Source of the DNA: Candidatus Bathyarchaeota archaeon
GTDB lineage: Archaea; Thermoproteota; Bathyarchaeia; TCS64
Length of the DNA stretch: 21,703 nucleotides
Direction: 5' to 3'
Assembly: GCA_018396515.1 (NCBI GenBank)
Contig: JAGTQJ010000004.1
Span: forward strand, 2,409-24,111
Below, piece by piece: positions 12,727-16,116 of this stretch. Position 1 is the first letter of the stretch. Every line of letters begins with the position of its first letter. Under the pieces are notes generated by a model. That model ran no database searches. It was not told the DNA's origin and worked only from the letters and a program-made list of their open reading frames with translations. Both the position numbers and the translations under genes were made by a program.

Positions 12727-14802
12727 ATGCTGATCCGAGAGGTTATTCTGGAGAACTTCATGTCCTACGAGTATGCAAGGGTTCCCCTAAAGCCAGGTCT
12801 CAATATCGTCGTAGGCCCTAATGGCTCTGGGAAGTCGGCCTTCCTCCAGGCCATCTGCGTCGCCTTGGGGGAGACCTACACTGAGCGCTCCAAAAGGCTC
12901 AGCGACCTGATAAGGTGGGGGGAGAAGAGGGCTCGGGTGAGCCTCCTCCTAGACAACTCTGTTAGGGAGGATGGCAGGAGGCCCATTCAACAATTCGACT
13001 CCGATGTGATCAGGATATCAAGAACCCTGAGGAGGGACGGGAGGTATAGTTTCCATATCAACCAGAGGGGGGCTCAGAAGCAGGAGGTTGTCGAGATCCT
13101 CAGGCGCCTAGGCTTCGACCCGGAAAACATGCTGATAATAATGCATCAGAATATGGCCGAGATCTTCGCAGCCCTCTCCCCACAGGAGAGGCTGAGGAGG
13201 TTGGAGGAGGCCGTTGGATTCCAGTCCTTCAGGGCCGATGTAACAGAGGCTAGGAGGAGGCTTAGCGGGATCCTAAGCGAGGAGGAGAGCCTCAACCAGC
13301 TCCTTGAGAGGTCAAGAGAGACGCTGAACTACTGGAGGGAGCAGTACGAGAGGCTTCAAGAGAAGAAGAGGCTTCAGACACGCCTGAATTTTCTGCAGAG
13401 GGAGATGGCATGGAGCAGGGTCTCAGAGCTTGAGGAGGCGATTAGGAGGCTTGAGGGGGAGGCCGAATCAGCCGTTGAGGCTCTAAAGAGGTGTGAGGAA
13501 GACCAGGAGCGGTACAATCTTCAGATCAGAGAATCTGAACAGCGGCTTAAGGAGTTGAGGGGTATGCAGGCAGAGCTGATAGAGAAGAGGGTGACATATG
13601 AAAGGGATCTAGGGGTCTACAGGTACGCGATAATGGAGTTAAGAGATCGAATAGCCGAGATCGATAGCATGATGAAGTCCCTTGGAGAGCGGAAGAAGGG
13701 CCTCGAGGAGAACTTCAAGGAGCTAAGGGGGAGGCTGAAGGCAGGTGCAACCCTAGAGGACTACTTCAAGCTCTTCGAGGAGGTTGAGAGGAAGGAGGCC
13801 GAGGCCCACGAGAGTTGGATCCACGGGCTAAGGGGGAGGAGGGAGGAGGCCGGAAAGCAGCTGGCCTCACTTGAGGAGAGGCTCATAGAGGCGGAGGGGA
13901 AGGCCGCCGCAGCTCTAGATGGGTTGAGGAGGATAGAGGCCCTGATGGATGAGGCCAGCAGCCTCTACATAGAAGCGAGGATCCAGGCAGCCCTCCTGAA
14001 GGAGCGGATGGAGGGCCTCAGGAGGAGGCTGGAGTATCTCAGGGGAGAGGTTGAAAAGGCCTCTAAAAGCCTCAAGGAGGCTGAGGCTGAAGCCCTGATA
14101 AGGGGAGCCAGAATAGAGACCGGGAGATCCTCAGATGAGGTCATGAACGAGATCAGAAGGGTTGGTGGGATGCTCATGGCTATGGCAGACATCCGAGAAG
14201 AGGCAGAGGCGATGTACGAGTCCTACTCAAAGACATACAAGGAACTATTGGAGAAGGCTCAAAGGGTTAGAGAGAGCAGGGTCAAGGTCATGGAGGAGGT
14301 GGAGGAGAGGGTCAAGAAGTGGAGGGATGTGACCAGAGGCCTAGTAGAAGAGGTTAACCAAAGGTTCCAGAGCCTCCTATCCCGCCTCCAAGCCAGGGGA
14401 GAGGTAAGGCTGACGAACGAGATGGATATAGAGGAGGCGGGCATAGACATATATGTAGGATTTAAAGGCGGTGAGGTGAGGCCTCTAGACCCCTACACCC
14501 AGAGCGGAGGTGAGAGGACCACAGCGGTTATGGCCTTCCTCCTCTCCCTACAACAGAAGATCCTCTCCCCCTTCAGGGCTGTAGACGAGTTCGACCTCCA
14601 CATGGATCCGAGGAACAGGGAGGTCGTCACCGAGTTCCTCTTCTCAACATTAGAGGGATCCTCGGACCAGTATCTGGTAATAACCCCGAGCCAACTCTTC
14701 TTGAAGGGGGGTAACTCACATATAATATTGGTCCATAAATCTGAGGGCTCATCCAAAATAAGCCTGGTGACTGGGGATGAGGGAGAGGGATGCGAGGTCT
14801 GA
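12727..14802 (+). CDS. SMC5/6-like SMC ATPase (short arms, minimal hinge)
   Basis: A 691-residue SMC-family ATPase. Residues 1-165 form the N-terminal head half: VILENFMSY, Walker A GPNGSGKS (30-37). About 170-545 is Arg/Glu/Leu-rich coiled coil. The C-terminal half has LQARGEVRL (554-562), the signature QSGGER (592-597), and Walker B FRAVDEFDLHMD with Asp620-Glu621. LQARGEVRL and QSGGER followed by SLQ are as I know them in SMC5, while SPFRAVDEFD is as in SMC6; classical SMC/ScpAB proteins read LSGGEK/R. The coil midpoint (about 339-375) holds no standard hinge domain or Rad50 CxxC hook, and the protein is far shorter than the 1,050-1,200 aa of normal SMCs. Start 12727 chosen because the domain begins there and promoter-like sequence lies upstream. 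First gene of a three-gene operon. Confidence 0.88.
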   Translation: MLIREVILENFMSYEYARVPLKPGLNIVVGPNGSGKSAFLQAICVALGETYTERSKRLSDLIRWGEKRARVSLLLDNSVREDGRRPIQQFDSDVIRISRTLRRDGRYSFHINQRGAQKQEVVEILRRLGFDPENMLIIMHQNMAEIFAALSPQERLRRLEEAVGFQSFRADVTEARRRLSGILSEEESLNQLLERSRETLNYWREQYERLQEKKRLQTRLNFLQREMAWSRVSELEEAIRRLEGEAESAVEALKRCEEDQERYNLQIRESEQRLKELRGMQAELIEKRVTYERDLGVYRYAIMELRDRIAEIDSMMKSLGERKKGLEENFKELRGRLKAGATLEDYFKLFEEVERKEAEAHESWIHGLRGRREEAGKQLASLEERLIEAEGKAAAALDGLRRIEALMDEASSLYIEARIQAALLKERMEGLRRRLEYLRGEVEKASKSLKEAEAEALIRGARIETGRSSDEVMNEIRRVGGMLMAMADIREEAEAMYESYSKTYKELLEKAQRVRESRVKVMEEVEERVKKWRDVTRGLVEEVNQRFQSLLSRLQARGEVRLTNEMDIEEAGIDIYVGFKGGEVRPLDPYTQSGGERTTAVMAFLLSLQQKILSPFRAVDEFDLHMDPRNREVVTEFLFSTLEGSSDQYLVITPSQLFLKGGNSHIILVHKSEGSSKISLVTGDEGEGCEV

Positions 14803-15559
14803 GCTAGAGAGCGTGATCGACCTCTGCAGGGCAGCCTTAGAGAGGAGGCTAGACCCCTTCGCGGTGGATGCAGAGTACGTGCTCTCGGTGATCCGAAGAT
14901 ACTATCCAAACGTGAAGTCATTGGAGGACTTATGCCTCGACGCCACAGCCATTAAGGAACTCTCATCGGTTCTGGAGATGCAGAATGAGTGGATTAGGCA
15001 TCAATCCACCATTCTCTACAAGGATCCATTCATACTCACTCAGCAGCTCATGAGAATGGACCTAGCAGCCCTCGTCGAGGCCTTCCTCTCCTCTTGGCAT
15101 CCCATCGTAGAGCTCGAGCAGGTCTCAGCCCCCACTCTCGCCCTCTCCCTAGCCTACTGGGGCAGCCTCCTCCCCATAAGAGAGAGGTTGGCTGAGATCG
15201 AGGTAAGAGGGGCCGAGGCCGAGACGAGGGGGAGGGATGAGGTGAAGGAGTTCATCCTAGATGAAAGCTTCTCAGAGACCCTAGAGGCGATGTGGAAGGA
15301 GCTATTGGAGAGGAGCGGTGAGGAGATGAGGATAGAATACTGGGAGTGGGTGGACGGGGAGACCTTCCAGGAGGCACTGGAGAGGGCATACCTAACATGC
15401 TTCCTTGTGGGATACGGCTACGCAAGAATAGAGCTGGATAGGCTCCAGGAAAGGGTCGAGCTGATACCCTACAAGGAGCCCAGACAAGAGCTAGCCTCAA
15501 GGGTTTCCATACCAATCCTGATAGACCAGGAGGAGTGGGCGAGATGGCGAGGAGGATGA
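14777..15559 (+). CDS. Putative Nse4-like kleisin of the SMC complex
   Basis: A 260-residue soluble protein whose start overlaps the SMC gene by 26 nt, implying coupled translation. The C-terminal region (184-235) reads IEYWEWV, then a gap to ETFQEALERAYLTCFLVGYGYARIEL. This parallels the Nse4 C-terminal domain as I remember it (FxFVxxPxSFxxTVENxFxxSFLxxxGxxRI), a winged helix that binds the SMC head. It also fits the general kleisin end FLALLELxxxGxVxLxQ of ScpA. The N-terminal part (60-110) is helical and could be the helix that binds the SMC neck and the Nse3-like partner; the middle (135-180) is acidic and linker-like. Length fits the Nse4/ScpA range. No other family suggests itself; without a profile search this remains a homology call by eye. 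Confidence 0.68.
   Translation: MRERDARSELESVIDLCRAALERRLDPFAVDAEYVLSVIRRYYPNVKSLEDLCLDATAIKELSSVLEMQNEWIRHQSTILYKDPFILTQQLMRMDLAALVEAFLSSWHPIVELEQVSAPTLALSLAYWGSLLPIRERLAEIEVRGAEAETRGRDEVKEFILDESFSETLEAMWKELLERSGEEMRIEYWEWVDGETFQEALERAYLTCFLVGYGYARIELDRLQERVELIPYKEPRQELASRVSIPILIDQEEWARWRGG
15529..15535 (+). promoter_or_regulatory. Ribosome binding site for the Nse3-like gene
   Basis: AGGAGGAG-type site inside the end of the upstream gene, about 8 nt before ATG 15544. It favours that ATG over the GTG at 15535 and over the ATG at 15556, which would give a 4-nt ATGA overlap but has no spaced site. Confidence 0.5.
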
Positions 15560-16116
15560 AGGGGGCTGAGGGAGCCTACGCCAGAAAGGCGAAGGAGGCG
15601 GCTAGGCTGCTATTATTCAAGCATCACACTCTACCAGGGGTCAGGGGGTGGGAATTGAGGGAGGAGCTGGGCCCGGAGTGGCTTGAGGTGTTGGAGGTCC
15701 TAGACAACCAGATAAAGGCCCTAGACCTCCAGGTAACAAGGGTTCTAGAGGAGCCCGAGACGACAATTGAGCCGACGAGAAGACAGCTGGAAGAGGCAAG
15801 GTACTACATCACCCTCAGAGGGGAGATGGATAAGAAGACATTGAAGACGATCGGATGGAGGATCGACGACATAGCGGGCCTAGCAGTAGCCGTAGCATAC
15901 ATAGTCTCGAGGCAGGGAAAGGCCCCTAGGATTGATGTTGAAAACATCCTATCTGAGAAGCTTCCAGGATGGAAGGTTAAGATGAACATAGATAGATACA
16001 TCCAAGAAGGCTACCTAGGAGAGGAGGATGGCCTCCTATACCTAGACTGGAGGAGCAGGGCGGAGATAGACCAGAAGAAACTATTAGACTTAATACTGGC
16101 CTACGGGAGAAAATAG
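15544..16116 (+). CDS. Putative NSE3/MAGE-like tandem winged-helix (KITE) subunit
   Basis: A 190-residue protein, third gene of the SMC operon, overlapping the kleisin-like gene by 16 nt. It reads like a compact MAGE homology domain. Winged helix A: EAARLLLFKH (18-27), helix to 60, LDLQVTRVLEE and the strand ARYYITLRGEM (85-95), matching the family's FGLELKEVD and YVLVN positions. Winged helix B: AGLAVAVAYIVSRQGKAP (111-128), VKMNIDRYIQEGYLG (145-159), then LYLDWRSRAEID (165-176), matching the family's GLLMVILxxIxxxGN, FVxxxYL and the hallmark WGxRAxxE, and a last helix KKLLDLILAYGRK. KITE proteins (ScpB, MukE, Nse1, Nse3) bind the kleisin; here the MAGE-type hallmark favours Nse3. ATG 15544 is preferred because of the AGGAGG upstream. 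No Nse1 RING partner is visible. Confidence 0.7.
   Translation: MARRMKGAEGAYARKAKEAARLLLFKHHTLPGVRGWELREELGPEWLEVLEVLDNQIKALDLQVTRVLEEPETTIEPTRRQLEEARYYITLRGEMDKKTLKTIGWRIDDIAGLAVAVAYIVSRQGKAPRIDVENILSEKLPGWKVKMNIDRYIQEGYLGEEDGLLYLDWRSRAEIDQKKLLDLILAYGRK

Follow-up and report, generated by a model that had tools for sequence, protein, structure and literature searches.

Can the parts of the eukaryotic Smc5/6 complex be encoded by three adjoining genes in an archaeon, and what would such a set do? The question is raised by a locus in a 21,703-nucleotide (nt) stretch of DNA, here called the window (GenBank assembly GCA_018396515.1, contig JAGTQJ010000004.1, positions 2,409 to 24,111), from a Candidatus Bathyarchaeota archaeon. 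The host genome (G000) is a fragmented assembly, 65% complete, and the named relatives of the window proteins are mostly Bathyarchaeia or Bathyarchaeota. Positions 12727-16116 of the + strand carry three overlapping genes, whose products are an SMC ATPase of 691 amino acids (aa), a kleisin of 260 aa and a KITE of 190 aa. Our results indicate that this triplet most probably consists of a hinge-less SMC of Smc5/6 type, an Nse4-like kleisin and an Nse1/Nse3-like KITE, which would work as one small ATP-gated DNA clamp. A first-pass annotation had described three genes overlapping by 26 and 16 nt, and all open reading frames (ORFs) were indeed found at the position and strand given. The SMC and kleisin genes share 26 nt (14777-14802), and the kleisin and KITE genes share 16 nt counted from ATG 15544, or 25 nt from GTG 15535. 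All the motifs it quoted are also present: LQARGEVRL, QSGGER and DEFDLHMD in the SMC, ETFQEALERAYLTCFL in the kleisin and WRSRAEID in the KITE.

Results

The product of the first gene (12727..14802, +) matched Pfam SMC_N (9.3e-36), and its ATPase motifs, which we take to be the Walker A, ABC signature and Walker B motifs, are intact. The Walker A sequence GPNGSGKS (residues 30-37; 12814..12837, +) has G30, P31, N32, G33, G35, K36 and S37 invariant among 31 homologues. When the window SMC alone was searched against the PDB, Smc5 was the top match (5.7e-32). With a profile of the 31 homologues, ten Smc5 or Smc6 chains (1e-70 to 6e-57) outranked all other SMCs among 59 matches at E <= 1e-10, the best canonical Smc scoring 8e-51 and Rad50 head constructs 1e-11. 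In a control search, a canonical SMC of the same class matched 42 sequences of the PDB at E <= 1e-30, and neither Smc5 nor Smc6 was among these.

The motifs point the same way. The signature QSGGER (residues 592-597; 14500..14517, +) is that of Smc5, and the Walker B region RAVDEFDLHMD (residues 617-627; 14575..14607, +) resembles LDEFDVYMD and LDEFDVFMD of Smc6. Such a union of a Smc5-like QSGGER with a Smc6-like DEFDxHMD in one SMC would be expected for a gene older than the split between Smc5 and Smc6. The tripeptide ITP (residues 652-654; 14680..14688, +), common to Smc5 and Smc6, occurs as [IV]TP in 34 of the 35 triplet SMCs; it is absent from the canonical SMCs seen, those of Pyrococcus furiosus and Bacillus subtilis carrying ITL and ITH. 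In a tree of 45 concatenated heads (368 sites, LG+F+R5), comprising 24 of the 37 family members with L187 excluded, only four eukaryotic sequences and no ASRP, the archaeal family joined Smc5 plus Smc6 with an ultrafast bootstrap (UFBoot) of 100. The node of Smc5 plus Smc6 received 82, and that of the archaeal family 96. An earlier tree of 59 rows was partly faulty: its row for L181 was the wrong ORF, a helicase, and it included the flagged pieces L120, L184, L187, L191 and L137. The claim of SMC5/6-type signatures is borne out by the PDB ranking, the motifs and the tree.

The second gene (14777..15559, +) encodes a kleisin that resembles Nse4. A profile of the family matched Nse4 as the only solved proteins in the PDB, Pfam Nse4_C matched 31 of the 43 kleisins at E <= 1, and the window protein, modelled alone, gave three Nse4 matches among solved structures. 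The model aligns from its residue 1 onward with Nse4 from residue 45, at a whole-chain root-mean-square deviation (rmsd) of about 20 Å. It shows a predicted N-terminal helical domain (residues 1-80; 14777..15016, +) at the position of the SMC-neck-binding domain, and a C-terminal winged-helix domain (residues 163-237; 15263..15487, +) at that of the head-binding domain. These two features of the kleisin superfamily are indicated by model, fold matches and hhalign, in which the C-terminal domain also matches that of ScpA. The Nse4-like C-terminus proposed earlier was recovered both by sequence and by fold.

For the third gene (15544..16116, +), the protein has 190 aa from the ATG or 193 aa from GTG 15535, and the ATG is the better start because its Met is nearly invariant (at least 90%) in an alignment of 55 KITE rows. 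The KITE was predicted as a tandem winged helix with a predicted local distance difference test (pLDDT) score of 86.2 and a predicted template-modelling score (pTM) of 0.77; a tandem winged helix within an SMC operon is what characterises the KITE superfamily. The four best Foldseek matches of the model came from Nse1-Nse3 and MAGE-NSE1 structures, and MAGE and Nse1 were the commonest Pfam families among the 55 relatives. The MAGE/NSE3 hallmarks claimed at first sight hold in the fold, with a weak signal in the sequence; instead of unrelated families, the second and third proteins match Nse4 and Nse1-Nse3/MAGE. Assigning either protein to its family needs sets of homologues, because the signal appears only across them; neither window protein had an NCBIfam match. 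A Pfam scan of the 193-aa form of the KITE returned no RING match, and a distant KITE query (L127) found 8 relatives, none of them named Asgard.

Do the three genes form one unit? Among 43 loci fetched for the KITE gene, 36 have an SMC frame upstream of kleisin and KITE on the same strand, so the order is kept in other archaea, as the synteny check proposed in the first-pass annotation asked. In these 36, the SMC frame is broken in L034 and L037 and cut by the contig end in L010. One of the other seven (L041) ends at a contig edge, and in five (G163, G224, G335, G037 and G040) the SMC gene lies at another place in the genome; in G035, which is 85% complete, a genome search found no SMC. Chance ORFs were rejected as an explanation, given the order kept in 36 of 43 loci.

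The two broken frames deserve mention. At L034:4156-6207 (G005) the SMC frame is split into pieces of 201 and 457 aa. G017, a genome of one contig, yielded no more than the last 194 aa, at L037 (reverse complement 5706-6290). These would be pseudogenes or assembly errors.

The genes also come and go together. Within 151 genomes of the class, the SMC and the kleisin each occurred in 115 and the KITE in 113; 109 genomes have all three genes and 32 have none. The latter include genomes at least 90% complete (G036, G061, G083). Ten are mixed (G009, G018, G029, G035, G041, G044, G064, G073, G098, G126), and in several of these, for example G041 and G044, the locus lies at a contig end. Presence was called at E < 1e-40 for the SMC and E < 1e-20 for the kleisin, cut-offs chosen after the scores had been seen in order to exclude canonical SMC and ScpA, and genomes absent from the match lists were counted as lacking the gene by elimination. 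Across the phylum, the KITE was found in 125 of 300 genomes, as a rule with one match per genome.

This distribution bears on the idea that the triplet serves in defence, as Wadjet or a related system would. Wadjet SMC complexes, according to passages of PMC12647877, restrict plasmids in bacteria and archaea, and the window ATPase does match SMC-like PADLOC models (mad3 7.6e-33, LmuB 7.2e-18 and, weakly, JetC 1.6e-9). Against this, neither the kleisin nor the KITE has a PADLOC match, the KITE occurs, usually in single copy, in 113 of the 151 genomes of the class, and no relative turned up when viral contigs were scanned once with the KITE profile. A mobile or defence system was set aside as highly improbable.

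The hinge is what sets the SMC apart. Where it would be expected, the protein has a coiled-coil tip (about residues 315-375; 13669..13851, +) which, in an alignment of 34 SMCs, falls in a short, unconserved middle region that is largely absent from many relatives. Triplet SMCs measure 570-691 aa (n=35, window included), or up to 727 aa if the furthest upstream start is taken (n=34). Pfam SMC_hinge did not match the window SMC and was absent among the 25 families, of 104, listed for the 31 homologues, of which it could match at most two; as a control, two canonical SMCs of the phylum matched it at 7e-23 and 2e-18. A scan for the zinc-hook motif CxxC, covering the 35 triplet SMCs, zinc-hook rows and one canonical row, found it in none of the 35. 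By its sequence, a triplet SMC without a recognisable hinge is new here. The first-pass annotation overlooked this absence. Its interpretation is supported overall, but the suggestion that the operon could represent the ancestor state of SMC5/6 does not simply hold, because the hinge is missing from its SMC.

With the hinge considered, it can be asked whether the triplet is a divergent canonical SMC-ScpA-ScpB complex. Both sets have the same three types of part; the C-terminal domain of the kleisin matches ScpA by hhalign, and weakly in genome searches, and a search of 18 genomes recovered ScpA itself from only 6 (2 above the cut-off), G000 not among them. However, in G131 a canonical SMC with an adjoining ScpA match lies apart from the triplet, and in G002, of the same genus, a ScpA match is followed by a gene which we take, from its sequence and place, to be ScpB. 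The canonical SMCs here have 1,125-1,185 aa, and the two scanned both carry a hinge. The window SMC scored 193 bits on NCBIfam SMC_prok_A against a cut-off of 729, and hhalign of the KITE with the apparent ScpB gave 2.1%. Grouping of the archaeal family with canonical SMC was rejected by the approximately unbiased (AU) test (p = 0.009), though not by the Shimodaira-Hasegawa (SH) test (p = 0.38); these tests used fast constrained trees under LG+F+G4, the tree itself being built under LG+F+R5. Canonical identity was rejected on the AU test, the missing hinge and the SMC_prok_A score, and is scarcely credible.

Some relatives depart from the hinge-less form. In three f10 genomes there is a longer SMC of the same clade (L131:1681-4857, L133:2112-3835 and L135, reverse complement 2941-6060), of 1,039 and 1,067 aa where complete, with a Rad50-like CxxC (CDKCGS) in mid-protein and long coils. 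Neither a kleisin nor a KITE turned up beside this longer SMC. The partly faulty first tree nests it with the hinge-less SMC of G076 at a UFBoot of 100, as though it had acquired a zinc hook. In another genome (G163; L187, reverse complement 930-4847), a 1,305-aa SMC-like frame is broken at Walker A: beyond GRNGSGKC its sequence is unrelated, as if an intein had been inserted into the P-loop.

Could the triplet ATPase then be a repair ATPase akin to Rad50 or ASRP (coalescin/Sph), to which a kleisin and a KITE were recruited? It lacks the SMC hinge, the Rad50-like CxxC is present in the long coils of a close paralogue from one family (L131, L135), and the AU test keeps the grouping with Rad50 (p = 0.099). 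The SMC phylogeny suggested in the first-pass annotation thus gave a divided answer: the family groups with Smc5/6 and canonical grouping is rejected, and Rad50 grouping is not. On the other side stand the distance between Smc5/6 and Rad50 in the PDB profile search (1e-70 vs 1e-11), the absence of CxxC from all 35 triplet SMCs, an ASRP score (NF045487) of 90.4 bits against a cut-off of 300, and the nesting of the zinc-hook paralogue within the archaeal family, in a tree with some faulty rows. We regard such an origin as quite improbable.

The longer SMC also suggests that the triplet might be part of a larger heterodimeric machine with a second SMC, since it belongs to the same clade (L131, L133, L135) and hinge-less heads would need another route to pairing. 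Among the matches listed, it is found in three f10 genomes only (G047, G073, G076), and G204 and G335 show no long canonical SMC among their listed PF02463 matches. We regard a second SMC as partner as unlikely. From those matches, the hinge-less SMC may be the only SMC in G204 and G335.

Around the triplet, an XPB/Rad25-like helicase (16488-17831) and a DUF790 protein (17828-18997) lie directly downstream, and the upstream dipeptidase recurs at 8 of 42 loci, all inside the order. A gene of about 230 aa lies near the triplet in 16 loci (e.g. L126:6657-7337, L044:6574-7254), on the opposite strand in all 14 shown; at E <= 0.001, Pfam matched neither of the two examples scanned. In 9 loci (e.g. 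L112:520-3354, L114:7048-9906) the triplet has near it, also on the opposite strand, a helicase of about 950 aa, with Lhr-type domains in the two examples scanned.

Discussion

Sequence comparison and predicted models show which families the three proteins belong to, that their genes tend to be present or absent together, and that the SMC has no recognisable hinge. From these, a mechanism can be proposed in which two copies of the single SMC would pair through their ATP-bound heads. The N-terminal helices of the kleisin would bind the neck of one SMC and its C-terminal winged helix would cap the other, and two KITE copies on the kleisin middle would close over DNA lying on the heads, as yeast Nse1, Nse3 and Nse4 do; ATP hydrolysis would reopen the clamp. 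We infer the stoichiometry of two heads, one kleisin and two KITE copies, with the homodimer following from gene counts. A ring without a hinge would be closed by heads, kleisin and KITE alone, and would hence be a short-reach clamp rather than a long-armed loop extruder. The role of the clamp may lie in repairing DNA or maintaining the chromosome, alongside the canonical SMC-ScpA system that related genomes encode elsewhere. Pairing of heads without a hinge is plausible, since hinge-less yeast Smc5 and Smc6 subcomplexes carrying the EQ (hydrolysis) mutation were robustly co-isolated with ATP, according to passages of PMC8327961.

Several observations weigh against this interpretation. Searched alone, the window kleisin and KITE have chance-level Pfam matches and none to a relevant family; the MAGE and Nse1 matches of the KITE relatives are weak (best 0.0021 and 0.015), the KITE profile found no KITE in the PDB by sequence, and its alignment with the apparent ScpB gave 2.1%. 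The kleisin model has a pTM of 0.41 with a low-confidence middle, and two of its three Nse4 fold matches have a whole-chain rmsd near 20 Å. The SH test rejects none of the tree alternatives; the AU test, besides keeping the Rad50 grouping, keeps Smc5/6 with canonical SMC (p = 0.092) and does not distinguish a position sister to both Smc5 and Smc6 from one nearer Smc5 (0.56) or nearer Smc6 (0.44). At six loci the SMC gene does not adjoin kleisin and KITE. The suggested role in repair or chromosome upkeep draws on kinship only, and the XPB and DUF790 neighbours adjoin the triplet in just two of 42 loci, L009 and L032, both from the genus.

More tentatively, and with more doubt than confidence on our part, the hinge-less SMC-kleisin-KITE clamp may represent a stage with single genes whose later duplication produced Smc5 and Smc6 on the one hand and Nse1 and Nse3 on the other; it would also show that an SMC complex can work without a hinge. 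If so, the Smc5/6 parts list would predate eukaryotes, the triplet would show Smc5/6 as it was before its motor gene was duplicated, and these parts could be studied as a three-protein set, leaving aside the later eukaryotic subunits. The absent hinge directly raises the question to what extent SMCs depend on a closed ring and long arms, and a clamp built from only heads, kleisin and KITE could be compared with loop extrusion in assays.

How does the triplet compare with known systems? Canonical SMC-ScpA-ScpB likewise combines an SMC, a kleisin with a C-terminal winged helix and a KITE, but it has a hinge, long arms, other motifs and a ScpB-type KITE, and related genomes encode it at a locus of its own. 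The triplet SMC shares with Rad50 and ASRP (coalescin, Sph) the heads of the SMC superfamily and the lack of an SMC hinge; unlike it, those two have a zinc hook, and they scored far lower here.

An archaeal 'SMC5/6-related' SMC is reportedly due to Yoshinaga and Inagaki 2021, the source cited for it, and Van Hooff et al. 2025 (Cell Reports 44:115855) is said to deal with archaeal ancestors of SMC complexes. A literature search, which did not cover these two works, found no description of a hinge-less SMC together with an Nse4-KITE pair in archaea. A clade of archaeal SMCs grouping with Smc5 and Smc6 has already been published as 'SMC5/6-related' (PMC9389158); the likeness to the triplet SMC is by description, and the passages of that paper speak of the SMC alone, with no mention of a kleisin. 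Hinge-less SMCs have been reported in an oceanic cluster assigned to Actinobacteria (PMC12153180), with neither hinge nor CxxC, as in the triplet SMC. That cluster is bacterial, and the text passages of the paper name no kleisin or KITE and do not mention SMC5.

Eukaryotic Smc5/6 resembles the triplet in its head motifs, its head clade, its Nse4-type kleisin and its tandem winged-helix KITEs, Nse1 and Nse3 being the nearest to ours. It differs in having two SMCs where the locus has one SMC gene, two KITEs (Nse1, with a RING, and Nse3) where the locus has one without a RING match, and a hinge that dimerises the SMCs where the triplet SMC has short arms and no recognisable hinge. We therefore call the triplet Smc5/6-type and not Smc5/6, because it lacks two distinct SMC subunits. 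In yeast, according to passages of PMC9191643, heads and necks hold the DNA while Nse3 shuts it in from above, and Nse4 places its N-terminal domain on the Smc6 neck and its C-terminal domain on the Smc5 head. These DNA-holding parts of yeast Smc5/6 have counterparts in the triplet, one each.

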